64,000 nucleotides of DNA from Sphingomonas sp. R647 (GTDB lineage: Bacteria; Pseudomonadota; Alphaproteobacteria; Sphingomonadales; Sphingomonadaceae): positions 124,001 through 188,000 of the forward strand of contig NZ_JAIQXT010000001.1 of assembly GCF_020177055.1 (NCBI RefSeq). Direction: 5' to 3'. This document shows positions 7,139 to 19,544 of this stretch, one piece after another. Under the pieces are notes generated by a model, which was not told the origin of the DNA, did no database searches, and worked only from the letters and a program-made list of their open reading frames with translations. Made by a program: the position numbers and the translations under genes. The first letter of the stretch is position 1. Each line of letters opens with the position of its first letter.

Positions 7139-8683
7139 TCATGCGTTAACCGGTGCGGGGAGTATACCAGGTTTCGCGAGCTGGCCGCGATCCATGTCCA
7201 GATAGAATCGCGACTGAGCGTAGTGGCTCAGAAAGTACAGAATGCTGGGGAGGGCTCCGGGCTTCTGCGCTCCGGCTTTCAGCACGGTTCGAACCATCAG
7301 TTCTTCTGCTTCGCCAAGGGATGAGATATATCGCAGGATCTTAGGAAGCATGTGGCTTCGTGGGTCTCGCGCGCGTGCAGTGCGACGTGGCGTGGACACG
7401 TGACTAGCTGGGAACTTCGCCAAGAAGTTCATGATCCGCTGTTCGAAGGAATTTGGTTCAAAGCAGTATCGCGCAAGTTCGACAGTGCGGGCGACGAGAT
7501 CCTCCCGCGGCATGAGCGCCGGAACGATATTGGTCGCAAACGGACCCTGAATCGCACTTGTCCAGATCGGCCCGTCGATCCGCCCTTCGCGTTCCAGGCG
7601 GTGGTAGAGATCGGTCCCCTGCGGTGCGGTCAGCACGCCGACCGCGACTTCAGGTAAAGGCGAATCCTGGAGGAATTGCCGCATTTCCTCGAACGTATCG
7701 ACACTGTCATGGTCAAAGCCGAGGATAATGCCCGCGTGAACGCCGATACCGTGCCCGACGATCGCGTCGATCGCCTGGTGCATCGGTTGGATCAGGTTCT
7801 GCCGCTTTCCCGCTTCGCGCAGGCTCGCCTCGTTGATCGTCTCGACGCCCATGAAGAACATCTTGAATCCCGCTTCGCGGCATAAAACGAGCATCTCGGT
7901 GTCGCGCGCGATATCCAGTGACGCCTGGGTGATGAACGACACGCGCTCATCGCCACGTGCGGCGTTCCACGCGGCGAGCTCGAGCAAGACTGCACGCGCC
8001 CAGCTGCGGTGCACAGTGAAATTATCGTCGACGATGAAGATGCTGCGGAAGCCGACGGCATGAAGCTGATCGAGTTCGCGGAGAATCTGATCGGTGTCCT
8101 TATGGCGCTGCTTGCGACCCTGATACTGAATCACGTCACAAAACTCGCAGTTGAACGGGCATCCTCGCGTGGTCTGCAGCGCTCCCGACTGAGCGCGATC
8201 GACGGGGTACAAGTCCCAGCGCGGGATCGGCGACTTGCGAATATCCGCAAATCCGCCGTTATACTGATTTTGCCAGCGTCCCGCGGCGAGATCGGCAAAC
8301 AGTTCGTCTGCGATCTCCTCGATCTCTCCGGTGACCAGGATGTCTGCATGAGGGCGCATGTCCTGAGGGCTGAGCGAGGCGAAGGGGCCGCCGATTAGTA
8401 CGGTCCGACCGCGCGCCCTGAACCCCTCCGCCAGTGCGATCATGCGTCCCCGCTGCGACACCTTGCCTGTGATCGCGACGAAATCGACCTGCGCGTCCAG
8501 ATCAACCGGCGAGATCGCCTCGTCCGTCAGGCGAATATCCCAGCCCTCGGGGACAAAACCAGCGAGCGTCGCCGTGGTCAGGTCGGCGACGGACACATAG
8601 CCGCCGTCCGCCTCGTCAAGTACCTCGAACCCGTAATAGCTGGCATGCTCGGCGGCAGGATTGATGATGTAGATTGACGGCAT
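7139..8683 (-). CDS. B12-binding-type radical SAM protein
   Basis: 514 residues. An N-terminal Rossmann-like cobalamin-binding-type domain (about 1-140, with VLIGGPFASLSP and DILVTGEIEE) precedes a radical SAM barrel with the iron-sulfur cysteines C175, C179 and C182 (CPFNCEFC). A helical C-terminal part with NFLAKFP resembles DUF4070, which is found in this family with HpnP-like hopanoid methylases. The base-off DxHxxG cobalamin motif is not evident, as in several relatives. It likely performs a radical methylation or rearrangement on an unknown substrate. It is the last gene of an ACP / acyl-AMP ligase / radical SAM operon, starting three bases after the ligase stop, so an acyl chain carried on the ACP is the natural candidate substrate (inference). 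Confidence 0.82.
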   Translation of the reverse strand: MPSIYIINPAAEHASYYGFEVLDEADGGYVSVADLTTATLAGFVPEGWDIRLTDEAISPVDLDAQVDFVAITGKVSQRGRMIALAEGFRARGRTVLIGGPFASLSPQDMRPHADILVTGEIEEIADELFADLAAGRWQNQYNGGFADIRKSPIPRWDLYPVDRAQSGALQTTRGCPFNCEFCDVIQYQGRKQRHKDTDQILRELDQLHAVGFRSIFIVDDNFTVHRSWARAVLLELAAWNAARGDERVSFITQASLDIARDTEMLVLCREAGFKMFFMGVETINEASLREAGKRQNLIQPMHQAIDAIVGHGIGVHAGIILGFDHDSVDTFEEMRQFLQDSPLPEVAVGVLTAPQGTDLYHRLEREGRIDGPIWTSAIQGPFATNIVPALMPREDLVARTVELARYCFEPNSFEQRIMNFLAKFPASHVSTPRRTARARDPRSHMLPKILRYISSLGEAEELMVRTVLKAGAQKPGALPSILYFLSHYAQSRFYLDMDRGQLAKPGILPAPVNA

Positions 8684-8686
8684 GCC

Positions 8687-10357
8687 TCAACTCACAACTT
8701 GCGCTGAGCCGACGCGGGCCGCGTCCCGACGTGCCTGGTAGCTCAACAAGGGTTCAAGGCGTCCCGCCAAAAATCTTGCGCGTGATGCGGCTCTTCGCAC
8801 CTTGCCGCTGGTCGTCCGAGGGATGGCGCCGGGGGCGAGCAGGATCAGGTCATTGAGCCGCAATCCCTGGGCGTCGGCTACAGCGATCATCCCCGCCCGG
8901 ATCATCTCGTCCATCGTCTCCCGCGACGTCCCGCGCTCAACCTCGAACAATGCGATCACGGTCTCTTCGCCGTTGCGCTGGATCGAGAAGACCGCACCCA
9001 TTGCGCCGTATCCCCCACTGCTCGCTCGGATTACGACTTCGATATCGTCGGGGTGAATATTCTCGCCGTGATGGACGATGACATCCTTGAGTCTGCCGGT
9101 GACGAAGAGCTCGCCCTCGAGTTGGAAACCGAGATCGCCGGTGCGCAAATAGGTGGCGCTGGCGTCTCCTTGGATTTGAGCGGCGAAGACGTCGCGGTCG
9201 TCGTCGCTCGACTCGTATCCCTCGGCGACATGCTCCCCCTTGACCCAGATTTCTCCCTCGATGCCGTCCGCGACAAGCTGCCGGCTGGAGGGGTCGACGA
9301 TCTCGACACGCGCACCGGGTGTACCGCAACTGGCGACCTCGGGTGCCGCGCCATCTTGGGCCCGAACACGAAGCCCGGACCCTGCGGGACCGCCGCTTAC
9401 ATAGACCGTGGCTTCCGCGAGGCCATAGCACGGGAACAGCGATAGAGGATCGAACCCGTTCGCGTCGAAGCGGGTGGCAAAGGCGCGCAGGGTCTCGGGC
9501 CGGACCTTCTCGGCGCCGCAAAAGGCGACCCGCCAGCGTGAAAGGTCGCAAGGCTGTACCACCCGGTCCGCACGCCGTGTCACCAGGTCATAGGCGAAAT
9601 TAGGTGCTCCGCTCACGGTCACTGAATGCTCGCCAACCGCCTGGATCCAGGTTTCCGGCCGTCGCACGAAGGAGAGCGGCGTCATCATCAGCAGCGTCGC
9701 ACCGCTCGAGATCGCAAGGAGCAACTGTCCCACCAGACCCATGTCGTGATGCATGGGCAGCCAGGTGAGGACCCGGCTGTCCTCATCGACCTTCATCGCG
9801 GTTCGCAGCATGGCGAGGTTTGCGACGAGGTTGGCGTGGGTCACCCGCACGCCTTTCGGCGCTGCCGTCGAGCCGGAAGTGTATTGAAGCAGTGCAAGAG
9901 CCGCGGGATCGTGACGATACGGCTCCCCTGACGGTGCGGAGCGGCCAAGACGACCGTCGGTAGTCGGATCAAACCAGTCTAGCTCAGCGAGCGCGCCGGC
10001 GAGCGCCGCCGAGCCGGACAAGCGCAGTGCGTGCGCAACTCCGGCAGTCTCCACGATTGCGCGAAGGCGCTCGATGGCGCGCGGGCGCGATGAGGTCGGT
10101 ACGGGAACCGGCACGGCGTGCGCGCCCATCGTCCCAAGCAGCGCAGCGGCAAATTCAGGCGAGGATTCTGCGGGAAGCAGGATGCGCCGAGCGCGCATGC
10201 CTAAGCGGTCAAGCAATGCGCCAATGCGCCGTGCTTCCAATCGCAACGCACTATAGCTGAGGGTGGTCGAGACTGCACCGCGTGAGTCAAGCAACGCGAC
10301 GGCCACGGCGTTCGGCTTTTGCTCCGCCCATCGCTCGAGATCCGCAAGGATCGTCAT
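8687..10357 (-). CDS. Fatty acyl-AMP ligase (FAAL-type adenylating enzyme)
   Basis: 556 residues of the ANL superfamily. The P-loop LQYTSGSTAAPKGV, the segment WLPMHHDMGLVG and the core CYGLAEATVYV are the signature of FAAL enzymes, which form acyl-adenylates and hand the acyl group to an acyl carrier protein rather than to CoA. The C-terminal domain has the hinge TGRLKD and lysine segment TTSGKVRR. The ATG at 10357 overlaps the ACP stop (ATGA), which fixes this start over the longer frame to 10393. It should load a fatty acid on the ACP encoded just upstream. The acyl chain and final acceptor are unknown. Confidence 0.88.
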   Translation of the reverse strand: MTILADLERWAEQKPNAVAVALLDSRGAVSTTLSYSALRLEARRIGALLDRLGMRARRILLPAESSPEFAAALLGTMGAHAVPVPVPTSSRPRAIERLRAIVETAGVAHALRLSGSAALAGALAELDWFDPTTDGRLGRSAPSGEPYRHDPAALALLQYTSGSTAAPKGVRVTHANLVANLAMLRTAMKVDEDSRVLTWLPMHHDMGLVGQLLLAISSGATLLMMTPLSFVRRPETWIQAVGEHSVTVSGAPNFAYDLVTRRADRVVQPCDLSRWRVAFCGAEKVRPETLRAFATRFDANGFDPLSLFPCYGLAEATVYVSGGPAGSGLRVRAQDGAAPEVASCGTPGARVEIVDPSSRQLVADGIEGEIWVKGEHVAEGYESSDDDRDVFAAQIQGDASATYLRTGDLGFQLEGELFVTGRLKDVIVHHGENIHPDDIEVVIRASSGGYGAMGAVFSIQRNGEETVIALFEVERGTSRETMDEMIRAGMIAVADAQGLRLNDLILLAPGAIPRTTSGKVRRAASRARFLAGRLEPLLSYQARRDAARVGSAQVVS

Positions 10358-10596
10358 GCAGCGCGTTGCCCGCCCTTGATATCCTCGATCCACACCGCCA
10401 GACCTGCAGCGCTGGTTACCTCTTCCAGAAGGTCGAGTGGGATCTCGATCCTGAATTCGTCCTCCAGCATCAGGCCGAAGGTCACAGCCATGTTCGAATC
10501 ACCACCTAGATCGTAAAAATCTGCGTTCAATTCGATGCTTCTGTCCTGAAACAACTCGTGGAACAGGGCGAGGACGCGCTGTTCGATGTCGGTCAT
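10354..10596 (-). CDS. Acyl carrier protein
   Basis: 80 residues, normal length for a stand-alone ACP. The phosphopantetheine attachment serine is Ser34 in DLGGDSNMA. The surrounding acidic helices (ADFYDLGG, LMLEDEFRIEIPLDLLEE) fit the four-helix ACP fold. The GGDS form is typical of carrier proteins that serve FAAL, NRPS or PKS enzymes rather than the housekeeping DSL form of fatty acid synthesis. It is the first gene of a three-gene operon with a FAAL-type ligase and a radical SAM protein. A holo-ACP synthase is not present in the window and would be supplied elsewhere. Confidence 0.88.
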   Translation of the reverse strand: MTDIEQRVLALFHELFQDRSIELNADFYDLGGDSNMAVTFGLMLEDEFRIEIPLDLLEEVTSAAGLAVWIEDIKGGQRAA

Positions 10597-10689: not shown

Positions 10690-11946
10690 ATGATGGTTCA
10701 CCAGATTCGAGTTTTTCTCGATCGAGTGCTGCTAGGGCTGGTTGCCCGAACGCTCGGTCGGCACCATCGCAGCGCGCTCAGTGCGCTCATTTCGTGTGCC
10801 CGGTCGCATTACGCCTTGGTGCTTTTTCCTTTGATCTACCGCGCACAGTTGCATTGGTCTCGCGGCGACGCGGAGGCCGCCGACCTGCTATGGCAACGGC
10901 TTGAAAGTGCAATGCCCGGCTCAAGCCTGTGGCCGCTTGCCCGTGCCAATGCGGCGCGCCTCTCGGGGGACCTCGTCGCGCAGGGAGAAATCCTCGCGCG
11001 AGCACAAGCACGCGGGGTGCGTGATCCAATGATCGAAGCGTCGATCGACTCATCGCGCCCAGGCGGCAAGGTCGCTGCCGATGCGCGAGCACTGATCGAC
11101 GAAACCTCGACGCCTCCAGCGACAGTGTTTCAGGCCAGTATCCACCTTTCGGCTGACGGACAGCTGACGGAGGCGCGTCGGGGGCTCGATCGCCTCTTAT
11201 CAGACCCTCGCCTGGGGTGGGAAGCACAGGTGCAACTGCTCGCGCTGGATCTGGTAGAGAGATTCGGGACCGTCTCGACCCTTCCGGGGTGGTTCTCGCC
11301 GAAGCGGGGTTCGGCGTTGATCCGCACGGACTCCGACACGCTGCTTGTCGTATTCCTGCAACCTGGCGGCACGTTTGGCGTCTCGGCCAACGCGATCCAC
11401 GCGCTACTCGGCGCTGCGCCTCCTAACATTCTCTATCTCTACGATAGCAAAGCCCTCTTTCATCTTGCGGGCACGGATCGGTTCGGAGCTGGATATCGCG
11501 AGATGATCCACGGCATTAGGCTTTGTGCGGCGGAAATCGGGGCAAAACGGATCATGACTTTCGGGCGATGCGCCCCTGGCTTCACCGCGATCAAGGCGGG
11601 CCTCGATCTGGCTGCCATGCGTGTCATAGCGATTTCCCCGGTCACGACGATGGTGACCAGCCAGATGAGCGAAGACGCCCGCGCGCCGGTGCTCCAACGC
11701 AGGCTGGCGGAGGCGCTTTCCGAACATGAGCGGGACGTGCTGCCACAATTGATGCAGCAAGACCGCACCAGTTTTGATATTTTCTATAACCGGGCGCATC
11801 GCCGCGACAACGATTATGCGCAGCGCATAGCGGCGGCTCAGCGCGTCAGCCTATATCCTCTGGACGAGCCGGACCGGCGCGATCCGATCGAGCGGCTGCT
11901 TGTGCCACCGCTAGGCCGTGTCTCCAACCGCCTTGACGAAACCTAG
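10690..11946 (+). CDS. Helical-repeat protein with alpha/beta-hydrolase-like domain, Cys at the nucleophile elbow
   Basis: 418 residues. Residues about 1-190 are helical with TPR-like spacing (AQLHWSRGDAEAADLLWQRL). Residues about 215-345 read as an alpha/beta-hydrolase-like core: strand TLLVVFLQPGG, then NILYLYDS, a helix, and an elbow FGRCAPGF followed by AMRVIAISPVTTM. In relatives I recall this elbow reads G-x-S-x-G-G; here it is Gly292-Arg293-Cys294-Ala295-Pro296-Gly297, so Ser is replaced by Cys. No signal peptide is obvious. The gene is divergent from the ACP operon and converges on the peptide gene. Its position suggests a role in the peptide/acyl pathway, possibly acyl transfer or proteolysis, but function is not established. 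Confidence 0.6.
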   Translation: MMVHQIRVFLDRVLLGLVARTLGRHHRSALSALISCARSHYALVLFPLIYRAQLHWSRGDAEAADLLWQRLESAMPGSSLWPLARANAARLSGDLVAQGEILARAQARGVRDPMIEASIDSSRPGGKVAADARALIDETSTPPATVFQASIHLSADGQLTEARRGLDRLLSDPRLGWEAQVQLLALDLVERFGTVSTLPGWFSPKRGSALIRTDSDTLLVVFLQPGGTFGVSANAIHALLGAAPPNILYLYDSKALFHLAGTDRFGAGYREMIHGIRLCAAEIGAKRIMTFGRCAPGFTAIKAGLDLAAMRVIAISPVTTMVTSQMSEDARAPVLQRRLAEALSEHERDVLPQLMQQDRTSFDIFYNRAHRRDNDYAQRIAAAQRVSLYPLDEPDRRDPIERLLVPPLGRVSNRLDET

Positions 11947-11981: not shown

Positions 11982-12125
11982 TCAGCTGCAATCGACCTGG
12001 CCGTCATTGGATCCCGGAACGCTCGTGAAATTTGCGGTCTCGCGCAGATCAAGCTCCTGCAGCACCGGGGCCGTCCATGCCTCTTTTTCCGAAGCGATAT
12101 CGCGAACTTGGCTACTCTGAGACAT
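11982..12125 (-). CDS. Small ribosomal peptide precursor with lasso-type leader (47 aa)
   Basis: A short gene. ATG 12125 is preceded by AGGA at eight bases; longer in-frame starts at 12134 and 12155 lack such a site. The peptide has a leader with W17-x-x-P20-x-x-x-x-L25-D26-x-x-x-T30, the pattern and spacing of paeninodin-type lasso precursors that bind a PqqD-like B1 protein and end with Thr at the penultimate leader position. The remaining segment is NFTSVPGSNDGQVDCS and ends in Ser47. If cleavage follows the Thr rule (after A31), there is no Asp/Glu at ring positions 7-9; Asp41 would be residue 10, or residue 9 if Phe33 were first. The gene sits between the helical-repeat gene and the cyclase homologue, on the opposite strand to both. 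A terminal Ser fits phosphorylation by the HprK-type kinase encoded nearby. Confidence 0.72.
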   Translation of the reverse strand: MSQSSQVRDIASEKEAWTAPVLQELDLRETANFTSVPGSNDGQVDCS

Positions 12126-12259
12126 GGTCGTCATCCTGCTGATTTTTTCCGCCATCGGCGGATATGTCAGCTATGGACACAAAGTCATTGCAATCTCAAT
12201 AGCAAAAGGGCTGGGCAATGGCTTTGAGTGGCCGCGCCGATAGAGTGAAGGGGTGGTTC

Positions 12260-12310
12260 ATGAAGCAATCGGCTAAGCGTCGGCTGCTGCGCGAGGCCGG
12301 CTCGCGATGA
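12260..12310 (+). CDS. Possible 16-residue coupled peptide before the cyclase gene
   Basis: ATG 12260 follows AAGGGG at eight bases and opens a very basic 16-residue frame (MKQSAKRRLLREAGSR) whose TGA overlaps the ATG of the next gene (ATGA). This is the arrangement of a translational coupling leader. The frame is too short to judge as a product, so it may only deliver ribosomes to the asparagine-synthetase-like gene. Confidence 0.3.
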   Translation: MKQSAKRRLLREAGSR

Positions 12311-14151
12311 CGTCGATCGCGGCAACATCGGGTGGTGGATCGACGGGCAATTTGTGTCGGCGGATCTTGGCCGGGCTGCGTCTATATGGGGCGGATGGGG
12401 AATCGTGTGCGGACCTGGACGCGGCCGCAATGGGCGTCGTCTATGCGCGCCGCACGCCGGAGGACCGGTTTGATCGCCAGCCGATTGACCTTGCGGGAGG
12501 GCGATACACGCTGGTTGCGGATTGCCGGGTCGACAATCGTTCGGATCTGATCGCGGCTCTGTCCCTGGGCGGCGCGGCAGCGCGCCTGAGCGACGCGGCG
12601 ATCATCGCACATGCCTTCGAGACCTGGGGCGTTGCAAGTTTCGACCGTCTACGCGGCGATTTTGCAATCGCGATCTGGGACCGAACCGATCGCCGATTTA
12701 TCGTCGCACGCGATCCGGCCGGTTGTGCCCCCCTCTTCTTTCATGCGCGCGATGGCGTCGTTGCGCTCGCATCAATGCCGCGCGCGCTCCATGCGATCGA
12801 GACGGTTCCGCGCCGGGCGGATACCGCGTTTATTACCAATGCGATCCGCGCGGGTGGCATGTTCGACGCCTCAAGTTTCTGGGATGGCATCGGGAGGGTG
12901 CTACCGGGTCATTTTGGTTATCTCGATTCCGATGGTCTGAAACAGGAGCGTTACTGGTACCCGCCTCAACTGCGCAGTCTTGGCACGAGCTTCGACGACT
13001 ATGTGGAAGGCTTGAAGGAACAGGTCGAACGAGCAGTTTCGCGACGTCTGCGCGGAGAGCTGAACGTTGCTACGCATTTGAGCGCGGGCCTCGATAGCGG
13101 CTCCGTCACTGGTGCGGCGGCGAGCATTCTTCGCGATCACGGGCGTGTGATTGCGTTTACCGCCGGTCCGCGAGAAGGATTCGCCGCACACAACGGGACG
13201 CGCATCGAGGATGAAACGACGCTGGCGGCGGCGACCGCCCGACTTCATTCCAATGTCGAACATGTAGTCGTGCGCCCGGGGCCCGACTGGGCGACCTCCG
13301 CGATCGAGACTGTCTTTGAATATTGGCAGGCGCCGACGACCAATATCTGCAACCTGGGCTGGAACGAACAAATCAACGCAGACGCTCAGGCCCGCGGGTT
13401 GCGCGTTCTGATGCCCGCGACGCTTGGAAATCTCGCATTGAGCTACGGCGGTGAACATATCTTCTCGGACCCGATTGCACAGCAAGACTGGGGGCAGCTT
13501 GCGAAGAACATTCTGGGGGAGCTTCACGCGCCGATCGGCGTCGCGCGCGCCTTTGCGCGCATGGCCCGCGACTCTCTCAGGCGCCGCTTCAGGCCGGGAC
13601 GGGTGGGGAAGAGCTGGACCTATTTCCCTGGAAGTGAGCCGTTTGCGGACATCGTCCTTGAACCGACCTATCGCGATATTCTGATGCGATCGGTCGCGCG
13701 AGCTGATCGAGGCAATATGCACAAGGGAACATGGGGCAAATGGGGGATCGACATCCGTGACCCCAGTACCGATCGCGACCTGATGGACTATGTCGCCTCG
13801 GTGCCGCTCGCAATGTTTCGAACGGGGGGCGTCGAACGTGCGTTAATCAAGGCCGCAGCCGTTGGCTGGATCGCGCCCGAGGCACTGACCGAACGGCGCA
13901 AGGGGCTCCAATCGGCCGATTGGTACGAGCAGGTCGCGGCGCATCGGGACTGGCTGCACCATCAGCTTGATGCGATTGCCGATCATGAGGAGGCGGCAGG
14001 GATGGTGGGCATCGACCGGCTACGCCGGATTCTGAACGAGAGTCCGGGAGATTGGCGAGATCCTGAGGTTTTCGCGCAATATCGTCACGCGCTGCTGCGG
14101 GGAATTTCCGCCGGTCACTTTATTCGCCGGGCGAGCGGAGGGAACCGCTAG
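12307..14151 (+). CDS. Asparagine synthetase-like peptide cyclase (lasso C-protein type)
   Basis: 614 residues. The N-terminal half has the fold of a class II glutamine amidotransferase (DRLRGDFAIAIWDRTDRRF, ARDPAG) but lacks the catalytic Cys at position 2, so it should not use glutamine. The C-terminal half has the ATP-pyrophosphatase loop SAGLDS at 259-264 and the helical end DLMDYVASVPLAMF seen in lasso cyclases. Such enzymes adenylate an Asp or Glu side chain and close a macrolactam on the peptide N-terminus. The neighbours (peptide with lasso-type leader, PqqD-like protein, HprK-type kinase) support a RiPP role over asparagine synthesis. GAGG about ten bases upstream and ATGA coupling to a tiny frame support this start. 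Confidence 0.82.
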   Translation: MTSIAATSGGGSTGNLCRRILAGLRLYGADGESCADLDAAAMGVVYARRTPEDRFDRQPIDLAGGRYTLVADCRVDNRSDLIAALSLGGAAARLSDAAIIAHAFETWGVASFDRLRGDFAIAIWDRTDRRFIVARDPAGCAPLFFHARDGVVALASMPRALHAIETVPRRADTAFITNAIRAGGMFDASSFWDGIGRVLPGHFGYLDSDGLKQERYWYPPQLRSLGTSFDDYVEGLKEQVERAVSRRLRGELNVATHLSAGLDSGSVTGAAASILRDHGRVIAFTAGPREGFAAHNGTRIEDETTLAAATARLHSNVEHVVVRPGPDWATSAIETVFEYWQAPTTNICNLGWNEQINADAQARGLRVLMPATLGNLALSYGGEHIFSDPIAQQDWGQLAKNILGELHAPIGVARAFARMARDSLRRRFRPGRVGKSWTYFPGSEPFADIVLEPTYRDILMRSVARADRGNMHKGTWGKWGIDIRDPSTDRDLMDYVASVPLAMFRTGGVERALIKAAAVGWIAPEALTERRKGLQSADWYEQVAAHRDWLHHQLDAIADHEEAAGMVGIDRLRRILNESPGDWRDPEVFAQYRHALLRGISAGHFIRRASGGNR

Positions 14152-14176: not shown

Positions 14177-15079
14177 TTACCCAAGCGCGGCGAGTTGCGT
14201 GACGATCCGATCAGCCGTTTCATCAATACGGCGACTGTCCCAAGGGCGCTGAAGCTCGAAAATCGGAACATGTTGTGCGAGCTTTAGGCAGGTTTGAAAA
14301 TGAAGCGATGGGTCGCCGATTACCGGCAGGAAACTGGCGCGATAGGTATTGGCGGCGAGCGCCTCAACTGCGCTGAAGCCGTGCAGCGAACACGCGCAGA
14401 CATCAGGCCCATCTGAACCAATCACGAAGATCCCCCTTAGAGGCAAGGCATGTTCGGGCTGGGAGGCGCGGGTCGGCACAACGAACTTGTCCATGCCGCT
14501 CCGCACGCGCCTCAAGGTAGAGGCATCGCGCCCGGAGCGCTCGATTGCATCGCTCCACAGTCGCACGCGTGGAATGCCCGGCTGGGCGACAAACGCCCCG
14601 TCGATGCCGCTGCTGATCACGCAGATGTCGTCGCTCAGAATTGCATGACCTCGGTCCAGAAATGCAGCGGCTAGCGTCGATTTTCCGGCCCGTGACGGCC
14701 CGGCGAATGCAACGGCCTGACCCTCGATAACAATCGCATTGGCGTGAAGCGGGAACATCCTGCGTTGGCAGAATATTGCCCCCATGGCTGTGCCCATGAG
14801 AAAAAGACGGATTGTGGCCTCGTCAGCTGAGGGATCCGGATCGATCCGGATCTGCGTGCCCCCAGACACTTGAAACCGAGCCACCGATTTGACCGAAACG
14901 GTGGCTCCGTACTCGGTCACGGATAACCCATAGGGATCTTTTGTGGCGACCGCCGGGGGCACGTGTCCCCAACTGACCGTGACGTCAGGCCGCGTTTCCT
15001 CAAGTGAGGAGCGAAGCTCGGGAAGCTCGATTTCAGAGCTGAGCGTGAGGCCGAACACGCGATAGACATGCGTCGTCAT
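14177..15079 (-). CDS. HprK-related serine kinase of RiPP type
   Basis: 300 residues from ATG 15079; a GTG at 15094 would add five. After an N-terminal beta-rich part (VYRVFGLTLSSEIELPEL), the P-loop GPSRAGKST (127-135) and paired acidic residues Asp150-Asp151 match the C-terminal kinase domain of HPr kinase. No HPr, EI or other PTS gene is present. Homologues such as PadeK and ThcoK phosphorylate the C-terminal serine of lasso peptide precursors, and the peptide encoded at 11982-12125 ends in serine. It follows the PqqD-like gene after 42 bases, so the two form an operon. It converges on the cyclase homologue with 25 bases between stops. Confidence 0.85.
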   Translation of the reverse strand: MTTHVYRVFGLTLSSEIELPELRSSLEETRPDVTVSWGHVPPAVATKDPYGLSVTEYGATVSVKSVARFQVSGGTQIRIDPDPSADEATIRLFLMGTAMGAIFCQRRMFPLHANAIVIEGQAVAFAGPSRAGKSTLAAAFLDRGHAILSDDICVISSGIDGAFVAQPGIPRVRLWSDAIERSGRDASTLRRVRSGMDKFVVPTRASQPEHALPLRGIFVIGSDGPDVCACSLHGFSAVEALAANTYRASFLPVIGDPSLHFQTCLKLAQHVPIFELQRPWDSRRIDETADRIVTQLAALG

Positions 15080-15121
15080 GAGCGGCGACGGCACCCGGTT
15101 GCTCGGGTACGCAAGGTTGAG

Positions 15122-15442
15122 CTAAGCATCGATCATTCTGACCATTTTTCGCACAGAAAGCTGCTCGATGAGGGTCGCGACGTCGCGCGCGCAGCGTTCG
15201 GCATCGACCTCGTAATGCCTTTCGAGCCGCTTTACCAAGTCAGGGACTGTCACTGGCGATGCGAGATACTCCCAAATCCGCGCCCCGATGGGGTCAAGCC
15301 CGTAATAGACACCCCTCTCTGCGTCGAGCATCAGCATTTCGCCGTCCATCGAGGCGGTAATTAGTCCTTCAGCCCGAATCCAATGTTTCGACCTGCGTCC
15401 AGATTCATTAAGCACGCGAACCTCCGCTACTAGCAACGCCAT
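15122..15442 (-). CDS. PqqD-like peptide recognition protein
   Basis: 106 residues with the PqqD fold pattern: TASMDGEMLMLDAERGVYYGLDPIGARIWEYL, then a helical C-terminus (VPDLVKRLERHYEV, VATLIEQL). PqqD-like domains bind leader peptides in many RiPP systems and act as the B1 protein of lasso pathways. The likely partner is the leader with the W-x-x-P motif encoded at 11982-12125. It is first in an operon with the HprK-type kinase. A B2-type transglutaminase-like protease, usually next to B1, is absent here. The type often seen beside HprK-related kinases was named PqqD_rel_X in TIGRFAMs (from memory). Confidence 0.82.
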   Translation of the reverse strand: MALLVAEVRVLNESGRRSKHWIRAEGLITASMDGEMLMLDAERGVYYGLDPIGARIWEYLASPVTVPDLVKRLERHYEVDAERCARDVATLIEQLSVRKMVRMIDA

Positions 15443-16706: not shown

Positions 16707-19472
16707 TCAGCGCAGCCTTTTGCCGTCAGAATCCCAGACTTCGACTGGCCCGAGGTTGAGGGCGCGAACCCCAGTCTCGATCTTCGAGAGGTCTCCGACG
16801 ACGACCCATGTCATCGCATCGGGGTTCAGCATTTTTGCAGTGTCCGCCAACGTCTCCGGCGTCAGCGCGGTGTAGCGCTGGGGCAGGGTGGTCAGCCAGT
16901 CATAGGGCCGATTGTACTGGTCGACCCAGCGCAGATAGCCGACCATCGCATTGTTCGTTTCGAACTGGTCGGGTAGCGTCAGCACCTGGCCGCGCACAAA
17001 CAGGTTGAGCTCCTGCGCAGTCGCCGGTCGCGTGCCGGTGATAGCCTGCAATTCCTTGGCGATCTCCGACAATGCAGGCGCGGTCTGGTCCGTCTGCACG
17101 CTGGTATTGACGGTAAAGGTTTGCGGGCCGACCCCGCCGCCAATCCCGCTGCCTGCGCCATAGGTCCAGCCCTTGTCCTCCCGCAGGTTCATGTTGAGCC
17201 GCGCGGTGAAGCCGCCTCCCAGCACCCCGTTCAATGCCTCCAGATCGAAATTGGCGGGATCGAGACCGTTGGGCATGATCTGCCCGACGCGGATCACCGA
17301 CTGGATCGCACCGGGCTTGTCGACCAGCACAACGCGCGGGGCGGTCTGCGCGGGCAGCGGGACGAGTGTCTTGCTGCCCTTGGCCGATGCATGCGCTTTC
17401 CAGGTACCGATGTGCCGTTCCAGCGTCGCGACCAGCGTGTCGAAGTCGACATCGCCCGAAGCGTAGATCGTGCCGTTGTCAGGACGGATCCAGCGGTCGT
17501 GAAAGGCGGTGAGATCCGCGCGGCTGTACGACGCGATCGTGTCGGCACGACCGGCAAGGCGGATGCCATAGGCATGGTCAGGACCGTACATCGCATATCG
17601 GTAGATGTTCGCAGCAATGCTGCCGGGGTCGGCCTTGGCCTGTTGAAGCCCGTTGAGCGCGTTCTGTCGGTCGCGTTCGAGGTCGGTGTCGCGAAAGCCT
17701 GGGCTTGCGATCATGTCGGCCCATAGGGAGATGGTTTCGTCGAGCGCGGGAACCAGCGCCGAGGCTGCGAAATTGCTCGTATCCGAATCGCCATGGGCAT
17801 AGATCCGCGCGCCCAGCATTTCGCTGCGCTCGGCGAACTGACTGCCTGTCAGCGCCTGCGTGCCGTCGCCCATCACATCGAGCGTGAAGCCCTGCAACCC
17901 CGGCTTGGCGGTCAGATCGGCAGCACCGCCCGCGTCGAAGGTCGCGACCAGCTCGACCGTCGGCGTGCCCTTTTTGTGCGAGAAGACGACGCGCATGCCA
18001 TTGGAGAGCCTGGCCTCGCGCCGCTCTGGCAGGGTGAAGGAGGTCATGTCGGCGAGCGCAGGCAGCTTGCTGCGATCGGCGCCGTCGGCGATCGAGCGAT
18101 ACTGGCCGAACGGCTCGACCGTCAGCCGGTGATTAGGCCGCGTGACCCACTCCTGCGCCGCGCCCTGCACCCTGGCGGCGGTCAGCGCGGCAAACTCCGC
18201 TTCCGAGGCGGCGTAGCGACCGGGATCGTTGTTGAAGATCATTCCGCCCGACAGCATCATGGCGCGGATGAACAATGACTCGCGTGAGCGGACATTGTCG
18301 CCATAGGCGATCATCTTGTAGCGCTTGAGTTCCGCCGGGGTCGGACCCTTTGCAATGAAGTGGTCGAGCTCGCGCTGGAGCGCAGCCTCGGCTTCGGCGC
18401 GATCGACGCCGGGCTTCAGCCGCATGTCGATCGTGAACATGCCGGCAATCGCCGCACCCTGATAATTGACGTCCACATTGGTGGCATAGGGATGGTCGAT
18501 CACCAGCGCCTGATTGAGCCGCGACAACCGTCCGCGCCCCAGCACCATTGCTGCCATGCGCAGCGCGGCGCTTTCCGGCGCGTCATTGCCCGGAACTGCC
18601 CAGGTCCATGACAACGCGGTTTGGGGGACATTGTCCTGTACCGTTTCAGTTCGCACGCGATCGAGCGTGGGAACCCAGGCCTGGACGCGCGATACCGGGC
18701 GGCCTTCGGGCACGCTGCCGAAATATTTGGTGACCATCGCGCGCGCCTGATCGAGCGTCACATCGCCCGCGATCGTCACCACGGCGTTGGTCGCGCCATA
18801 ATAGCTGCGGAACCATTCCTTGACGTCGTCGAGCTTGGCGGCGTCAAGATCGGCCATCGATCCGATAATCGGATGGTAATAGGGGTGGTTTGCCGGGAAC
18901 AGCCCGCGTGCCCGCATTTCCGGGATCATCGAATAGGGCTGGTTTTCATAAGTGCGCTTCTCGTTCTTCACGACGCCACGCTGCTCGTCGAGCTTGGCCT
19001 GGGTCACTGCGCCGAGCAGATAGCCCATCCGGTCGCTTTCGAGCCACAACACGCGTTCAAGCCCGCCGGTGGGTACGACCTCGTAATAATAGGTCTGGTC
19101 AAGGGATGTGGCGCCGTTGACGCTGGACACGCCGATCTCCTGCAGCGGCGGCATATATTCCTCGTCATGATGTTCCGATCCGTTGAACATCAGATGCTCA
19201 AACAGATGCGCGAAGCCACTCTTGCCCGCCGGCTCGTTCATCGATCCCACGCGATACCAGACGGCAACCGCGACCTTCGGCACCGAATGATCCTCGTGCA
19301 CCACGACGCGCAGACCATTGGGCAGGGTGAAGGTCTGGTAGGGGATCGATGCGCTCGCCACCGGGGATACTGCTGTCACCCCGGCCTTCTGCTTCGGCAT
19401 GGTCTGCGCGGTGGCCGTCGGCATGATGAGCGCCGCCGCCGTCGAAGCGAGCAGAAACTTGGGCAAGGTCAT
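16707..19472 (-). CDS. M16 (pitrilysin/insulinase) family zinc peptidase, exported
   Basis: 921 residues from ATG 19472, which begins a clean signal peptide (MTLPKFLLASTAAALIMPTA). The inverted zinc motif HLFEH gives ligands His89 and His93 with catalytic Glu92; a distal acidic helix (QRGVVKNEKRTYENQPY) supplies the further ligand. A second, inactive M16 half follows in the C-terminal part (GVLGGGFTARLNMNLREDKGW), so this is the fused two-domain form, acting in the periplasm on small peptides. It is the last gene of the ECF sigma / FecR / TonB receptor series and probably degrades the peptide imported by that receptor (inference). The longer frame to 19538 adds residues ahead of the signal peptide and is unlikely. 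Confidence 0.9.
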   Translation of the reverse strand: MTLPKFLLASTAAALIMPTATAQTMPKQKAGVTAVSPVASASIPYQTFTLPNGLRVVVHEDHSVPKVAVAVWYRVGSMNEPAGKSGFAHLFEHLMFNGSEHHDEEYMPPLQEIGVSSVNGATSLDQTYYYEVVPTGGLERVLWLESDRMGYLLGAVTQAKLDEQRGVVKNEKRTYENQPYSMIPEMRARGLFPANHPYYHPIIGSMADLDAAKLDDVKEWFRSYYGATNAVVTIAGDVTLDQARAMVTKYFGSVPEGRPVSRVQAWVPTLDRVRTETVQDNVPQTALSWTWAVPGNDAPESAALRMAAMVLGRGRLSRLNQALVIDHPYATNVDVNYQGAAIAGMFTIDMRLKPGVDRAEAEAALQRELDHFIAKGPTPAELKRYKMIAYGDNVRSRESLFIRAMMLSGGMIFNNDPGRYAASEAEFAALTAARVQGAAQEWVTRPNHRLTVEPFGQYRSIADGADRSKLPALADMTSFTLPERREARLSNGMRVVFSHKKGTPTVELVATFDAGGAADLTAKPGLQGFTLDVMGDGTQALTGSQFAERSEMLGARIYAHGDSDTSNFAASALVPALDETISLWADMIASPGFRDTDLERDRQNALNGLQQAKADPGSIAANIYRYAMYGPDHAYGIRLAGRADTIASYSRADLTAFHDRWIRPDNGTIYASGDVDFDTLVATLERHIGTWKAHASAKGSKTLVPLPAQTAPRVVLVDKPGAIQSVIRVGQIMPNGLDPANFDLEALNGVLGGGFTARLNMNLREDKGWTYGAGSGIGGGVGPQTFTVNTSVQTDQTAPALSEIAKELQAITGTRPATAQELNLFVRGQVLTLPDQFETNNAMVGYLRWVDQYNRPYDWLTTLPQRYTALTPETLADTAKMLNPDAMTWVVVGDLSKIETGVRALNLGPVEVWDSDGKRLR

Positions 19473-19544
19473 GTTGGAGAACTTTCCAGAACAGGACCGG
19501 CCGACGCGCCATCGCTGCGCCGGCCGGTCGGACATCAAGGACGA

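Follow-up and report, generated by a model that had tools for sequence, protein, structure and literature searches.

The window, a 64,000-nucleotide stretch of Sphingomonas sp. R647, carries a real, functional-looking gene cluster that is probably lasso-like in its working. Its product is probably a ribosomal peptide of the phosphorylated-lasso (paeninodin-type) pathway, most likely a macrolactam with the ring closed on Asp41 and a phosphate on Ser47; we give this reading a probability of about 0.55. The features concerned are listed by position in the window and strand; the core and leader boundaries and the acceptor follow the rule that places Thr at position -2 of the core.

7139..10596 (-): genes of a B12-type radical SAM protein, a fatty-acyl-AMP ligase (FAAL) and an acyl carrier protein, possibly associated (Pfam/NCBIfam scans)
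10690..11946 (+): orphan 418-aa protein (orf418), cluster membership uncertain, no Pfam/NCBIfam match
11982..12125 (-): precursor peptide gene, 47 aa, a real frame with leave-one-out profile support
11985..11987 (-): codon of the C-terminal Ser47; the core also holds Cys46
11985..12032 (-): core NFTSVPGSNDGQVDCS
12003..12005 (-): codon of the predicted acceptor Asp41
12033..12125 (-): leader region (W17xxP20, LD, Thr30 at -2, Ala31 at -1)
12134..12137 (-): AGGA, Shine-Dalgarno-like, 8 nt 5' of the ATG at 12125, read from the sequence
12307..14151 (+): lasso-type macrolactam cyclase (C), Asn synthetase family
14177..15094 (-): HprK-type kinase (K)
15122..15442 (-): PqqD-type RRE protein (B1)

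The 47-codon precursor frame is real, and chance is excluded. Its product is MSQSSQVRDIASEKEAWTAPVLQELDLRETANFTSVPGSNDGQVDCS, its stop codon is TGA and the same frame is open upstream to an ATG at 12155, which would give an alternative precursor of 57 aa. A profile built without the window gave the frame 33.8 bits (E 1.4e-9), while the best of 60 dinucleotide-shuffled windows reached 11.8; with the two partners of the Asp10 group (see below) also left out, the frame scored 30.8 bits and the best of 60 shuffles 12.1. The second-best frame in the real window had 6.4 bits. The precursor as noise was rejected on these leave-one-out profiles. The original prediction had picked out a small unannotated frame with a W-x-x-P...LD...T leader, and the residues are as described: Trp17, Pro20, Leu25-Asp26 and Thr30 are all present, which agrees with the [WY]xxP plus Thr(-2) signature of lasso leaders, and the paeninodin-like C-terminal Ser is there as Ser47. 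In the two libraries tried the frame is indeed unannotated, since Pfam gave no match and the score for the paeninodin model NF033524 (NCBIfam), 19.8 bits (E 4.8e-4), fell short of the cut-off, 27.

The same prediction named a cyclase homologue, a PqqD-like protein and an HprK-type kinase as neighbours, with which the Pfam and NCBIfam matches agree. The ATP-dependent macrolactam synthetase of a lasso cluster is represented by the frame at 12307-14151, which matched PF00733 and PF13537 over cut-off and NF033535 with E 2.1e-53 (181.9 bits, below the curated 525-bit cut-off) and contains the motif SAGLDS, presumably the ATP loop. The RRE is provided by B1, which matched PF05402 over cut-off, NF033536 (1.5e-21, 76.3 bits, cut-off 80) and solved lasso RRE chains, e.g. 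PDB 9x90_B (1.5e-12). As in paeninodin-type clusters an HprK-type kinase is present, with weak family matches below cut-off (TIGR04352, 3e-7; PF07475, 1.3e-4) and seven of the eight motif residues of lasso kinases (H, G, G, K, S, D, D), spaced as published (PMC10368454; here and below, papers are cited for the parts of their text that were available). The middle Gly is replaced by Arg, two of the three Gly being kept.

At E <= 1e-60, 12 genomes in a set of 199 mixed relatives had a relative of the cyclase, as did 26 of the 295 genomes of the genus and 9 of the 397 of the family (counting the own genome in each set); others were found in 35 loci of named genomes and, at E 1e-20, in 4 plasmid records. 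The closest, from a Pseudorhodobacter MAG (L016/L153), is 44-45% identical, and no orthologue above 45% identity was found in the mixed, genus, family, named-genome and plasmid searches. The Pseudorhodobacter contig stops just past the cyclase (L016), and the ~18 kb preceding it yielded neither a WxxP precursor nor PqqD or B2. For the neighbourhood count, 55 distinct cyclases were taken and 12 with short flanks set aside; the remaining 43 clusters, with at least 5 kb of flank on both sides, were searched with our own profiles within 8 kb of the cyclase and contained a kinase in 36 cases, PqqD in 37 and the leader peptidase B2 in 21. A FastTree of 64 cyclases, whose root is distorted by one long misaligned branch and whose groups were read without support values, placed the window together with L016, L054 and L105, L051 near them and L095 apart.

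Related frames were sought and their cores aligned, as had been proposed, and this gave 63 WxxP-type precursors. Left out were second copies or near-identical peptides (L116, L117, L118, L119, L089, L109, L110, L147), leaders without WxxP (L022, L032, L039, L040, L041, L049, L051), doubtful WxxP frames (L035, L027 and L112:10981, the end of which is out of register) and noise matches; among the 63 rows, several peptides from different species are nearly identical and hence not independent. The first Asp or Glu within core positions 7-11 is at position 8 in 50 precursors, at 9 in eight, at 7 in two and at 10 in three. These three (the D10 group) are the window, with NFTSVPGSNDGQVDCS, L095, with NTANICVRNDGFSFSDC, and L054, with NAVFSTTGNDGFGTYS; they come from three species and have Asn1, Asn9, Asp10 and Gly11 in common. 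The comparison thus confirmed for the window core what had been noted, namely that it has no Asp or Glu at positions 7-9, the stated ring positions of lasso peptides (PMC10368454), and does not start with Gly; because of the former, the peptide was not filed as an ordinary lasso peptide. Asn1 is present in 8 of the 63 precursors and in 3/3 of the D10 group, with a chance probability of ~0.0014, a guide only, as the question was posed post hoc and on related sequences. Against the preferred reading we count that the D10 group has three firm members, noticed after the fact, and that L095 ends in Cys and has no terminal Ser; the core without an acid at 7-9, the window without a B2 and the contig of the closest cyclase relative, on which no precursor, PqqD or B2 was found, also count against it. 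Ser is the last residue in 61/63 precursors, the other exception being L131 (Val); the profile behind many of the rows was trained mostly on Ser-ending peptides and one precursor search required a final Ser, a demand not made in three others.

With a profile of the three D10 sequences no further D10 member was found in 397 family genomes: six were matched at E 0.01, i.e. the window, L105, the D8 peptides L148 and L149 and two noise matches. Beside the second cyclase of the own genome lies a 48-aa frame (L051:10749-10895) with the Asn1...Asp10-Gly11 spacing and a different leader, tentatively a fourth D10-type precursor. The second own cluster to which this cyclase belongs (L051:8297-15038, contig C1) also has a PqqD protein and a kinase; a P450-like gene and a terpene-cyclase-like protein of 673 aa were recognised in it by eye. 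In L054, PqqD is apparently fused to a TylF-like methyltransferase (L054:6042-7151; by eye, weak profile match). Thr(-2) as a required anchor of the family was rejected, many clusters having Ala-Glu there with Asp8 or Asp9; predicted precursors with Ile, Val or Ala at -2 have already been mentioned (PMC10368454).

The single Cys near the end, to which attention had been drawn, is present but is a family trait: Asp-Cys occurs near the end of 19 of the 63 precursors, 17 of these with Asp8 cores. Such tails, mostly Asp-Cys-x-x-Ser with Asp8, were seen in the Sphingomonadaceae precursors L053, L056, L120-L134, L148 and L149, and with a profile of four Asp-Cys sequences 45 of the 295 genus genomes gave matches at E 0.05, although noise accounts for many of the weaker ones. 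The D10 precursor of L095 (L095:7927-8091) has two Cys, at core position 6 and as last residue, and since a protein that is DsbA-like by eye is encoded nearby (L095:11478-12632), a disulfide is suggested.

From the genes, the motifs, their conservation and their spacing we infer the following steps. B1 would bind the W17xxP20 leader, and the HprK-type kinase would place a phosphate on Ser47 at the C-terminus of the precursor, a site not named in the original prediction; the paeninodin kinase is described to act on the precursor's C-terminal Ser (PMC9266682). The cut after Ala31, with Thr30 at -2, would be made by a B2 from another part of the genome, perhaps the one in the sister cluster on contig C9. 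Asp41, activated by the cyclase, would be linked to the N-terminus exposed by this cut, and the tail of the resulting macrolactam may be threaded.

Where the ring of the window core starts depends on the Thr(-2) rule. The original prediction left the choice between a ring of nine residues from Phe33 and one of ten from Asn32, both to Asp41, and this is the natural reading. A cut after Ala31 would give the ring Asn32-Asp41, and we tentatively prefer this 10-residue ring for the window peptide, at less than even odds. With similar reserve, a lasso-type 10-residue Asn1-Asp10 macrolactam may be proposed for the window, L095, L054 and perhaps L051, made by clusters without a B2 of their own and phosphorylated on the terminal Ser where there is one. 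In the part of the open-access lasso literature available, in which silence is not proof of absence, no 10-residue ring or position-10 acceptor was found, and according to a review a change of ring size by one residue cut production significantly (PMC13352647). It is doubtful, though conceivable, that the leader is instead cut after Asn32, so that Thr is at -3 and Phe33 closes an ordinary 9-residue ring on Asp41. All three D10 precursors would thereby regain a known ring size; moreover, the register is not rigid, a second leader type of the family (T14 rows) having Thr one residue later from Trp, and in four precursors (window, L095, L054 and L105) Asn comes right after RE[T/A]x, in the manner of a leader element. 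Yet for L105, which shares the leader motif and Asn1 but differs in having Asp8 and an adjoining B2, the result would be a 7-residue ring, in a family in which the acid is mostly at position 8. Asn1 also stands with Asp8 or Glu8 in four other precursors (L131, L091, L020b and L135), so Asn can be ring residue 1, and Thr(-3) is not described in the portions of the literature consulted. The 10-residue ring has a precedent for its first residue in metanodin, a published lasso peptide with ring-forming Asn first and Thr two residues upstream; unlike the window peptide, metanodin has the expected ring size, and no kinase is mentioned in the available text (PMC12670498).

A second point absent from the original prediction is that no B2 is encoded in the window: PF13471 was not found there. 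The own genome has two PF13471 proteins, at C1:203453 and C9:31330, both outside the window. One is found in a further lasso-type cluster (L052), where it adjoins a cyclase-like frame, and the other is part of L053, a complete kinase-type cluster on contig C9. Because of these two genes, B2 could possibly be supplied to the window cluster in trans. The sister cluster L053 (C9:23000-41000) holds a cyclase, two kinases, PqqD, B2 and a precursor that resembles the window's in its Thr-Ala leader and has an Asp-Cys tail; an oxygenase-like protein of 401 aa and phage-tail-collar-like proteins were seen by eye. That loss of B2 might mark the D10 group was rejected: not only the window, L051, L054 and L095 lack a nearby B2, but also 18 others of the 43 comparable clusters, B2 being absent in cis from 22 of these, the window included.

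A product that stays unthreaded, i.e. a plain macrolactam or a linear phosphopeptide made by lasso-type enzymes without a dedicated B2, is unlikely. The window has no B2 in cis, and Novispirillum itersonii ATCC 12639 (G212) lacks any PF13471 match and is the sole B2-less genome among 27; its lasso-like cluster (L034) comprises a WxxP precursor, a cyclase, PqqD (B1) and three kinase-like frames. A RiPP family of Bacillota, the LPP RiPPs, likewise combines an RRE with an HprK-type kinase and uses another leader peptidase than B2; according to the available text (PMC13381572) it has a signal-peptidase-like protease, an NTP transferase and a conserved gene set without a macrolactam cyclase. Neither such a peptidase nor an NTP transferase was found among the ten neighbourhood proteins scanned. 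Against an unthreaded product speak the retained cyclase and the Asp, one of three invariant columns in the first alignment of 24 sequences, as well as the two B2 genes of the own genome and the presence of at least one B2 gene in 26/27 and 25/25 other genomes searched, some of which were counted twice. Even less probable, and in our view very unlikely, is that a formerly normal lasso locus has lost B2 and is now drifting. The missing B2 and the lack of a close cyclase orthologue would fit such decay, but the frames of the precursor, the cyclase, the kinase and B1 are all open and as long as is usual in the family, the kinase motif, the leader, the acceptor Asp and the terminal Ser are kept as described above, and the D10 spacing recurs in two other species.

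Two proteins of the window were considered as the missing peptidase. The M16 metalloprotease (16707-19538) was rejected: it belongs to an M16-TonB-FecR unit (window ~16.7-24.6 kb) conserved in three relatives, and homologues at E 1e-150 were found in 48 of 61 genomes, the own included. Neither a model nor sequence searches gave anything in support of orf418: its AlphaFold model had a mean pLDDT of 38.4 and was useless, its best plasmid match was 27% over 191 residues to a hypothetical protein in a capsule/KDO region, and at E 1e-6 it was matched in the own genome only, not in the 198 others of the 199 searched. The other window genes tried, those of the cluster among them, were not found at E 1e-10 in the ~19-kb stretches of the three relatives with the M16-TonB-FecR block, nor was a precursor found in these by profile; the M16 protease thus seems to be resident sequence. 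At E 1e-100 the radical SAM protein (7139-8683) went unmatched in 60 of 61 genomes, and because of its rarity and that of orf418 an insert may span from about 7 kb, an approximate left end, to 15.5 kb. A FAAL-like protein (33%) is encoded next to the precursor in L105, too, and the peptide of the window's cyclase clade may thus also be acylated. The long FAAL-like protein of L105 (L105:819-3755) has ACP and acyltransferase parts by eye and lies directly before the precursor. As a trait of the whole family, FAAL was not supported: the sole matches among the loci examined were that in L105 (L154 denotes the same locus) and a weak one (25%) in L044.

Among known systems, the window most resembles the paeninodin type (PadeK, ThcoK, SyanK, pseudomycoidin; PMC9266682, PMC10368454), with which it shares the WxxP leader, the cyclase, the PqqD-type B1, the HprK-type kinase and the C-terminal Ser. 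It differs in having the acceptor acid at 10 instead of 7-9, B2 outside the cluster, Asn at +1, a precursor below the NF033524 cut-off and scattered gene orientations. Kinase-bearing lasso clusters have been predicted in Sphingomonadales, and BsfA/BsfK of Bradymonas is, like the window, a lasso system with kinase and B1 outside the Bacillota; BsfK, however, phosphorylates Ser3, and BsfA has Ile(-2), Asp8 and a C-terminal Asp, whereas the window precursor has Thr(-2) and a terminal Ser (PMC10368454). The suggestion that the peptide may define a separate class was not supported: leader, cyclase, B1, kinase and C-terminal Ser fit the phosphorylated lasso family and the offset acid occurs in two other species, so that, judged by sequence, the Asp10 core is a shared rare variant inside a known kind.

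If the ring has nine residues, the Thr(-2) rule of genome mining mis-sets the core in the D10 group. If the 10-residue group is true, it would show whether one B2 serves several clusters per cell, and a conserved natural position-10 group would mean a wider lasso scaffold and a cyclase tuned for position 10.
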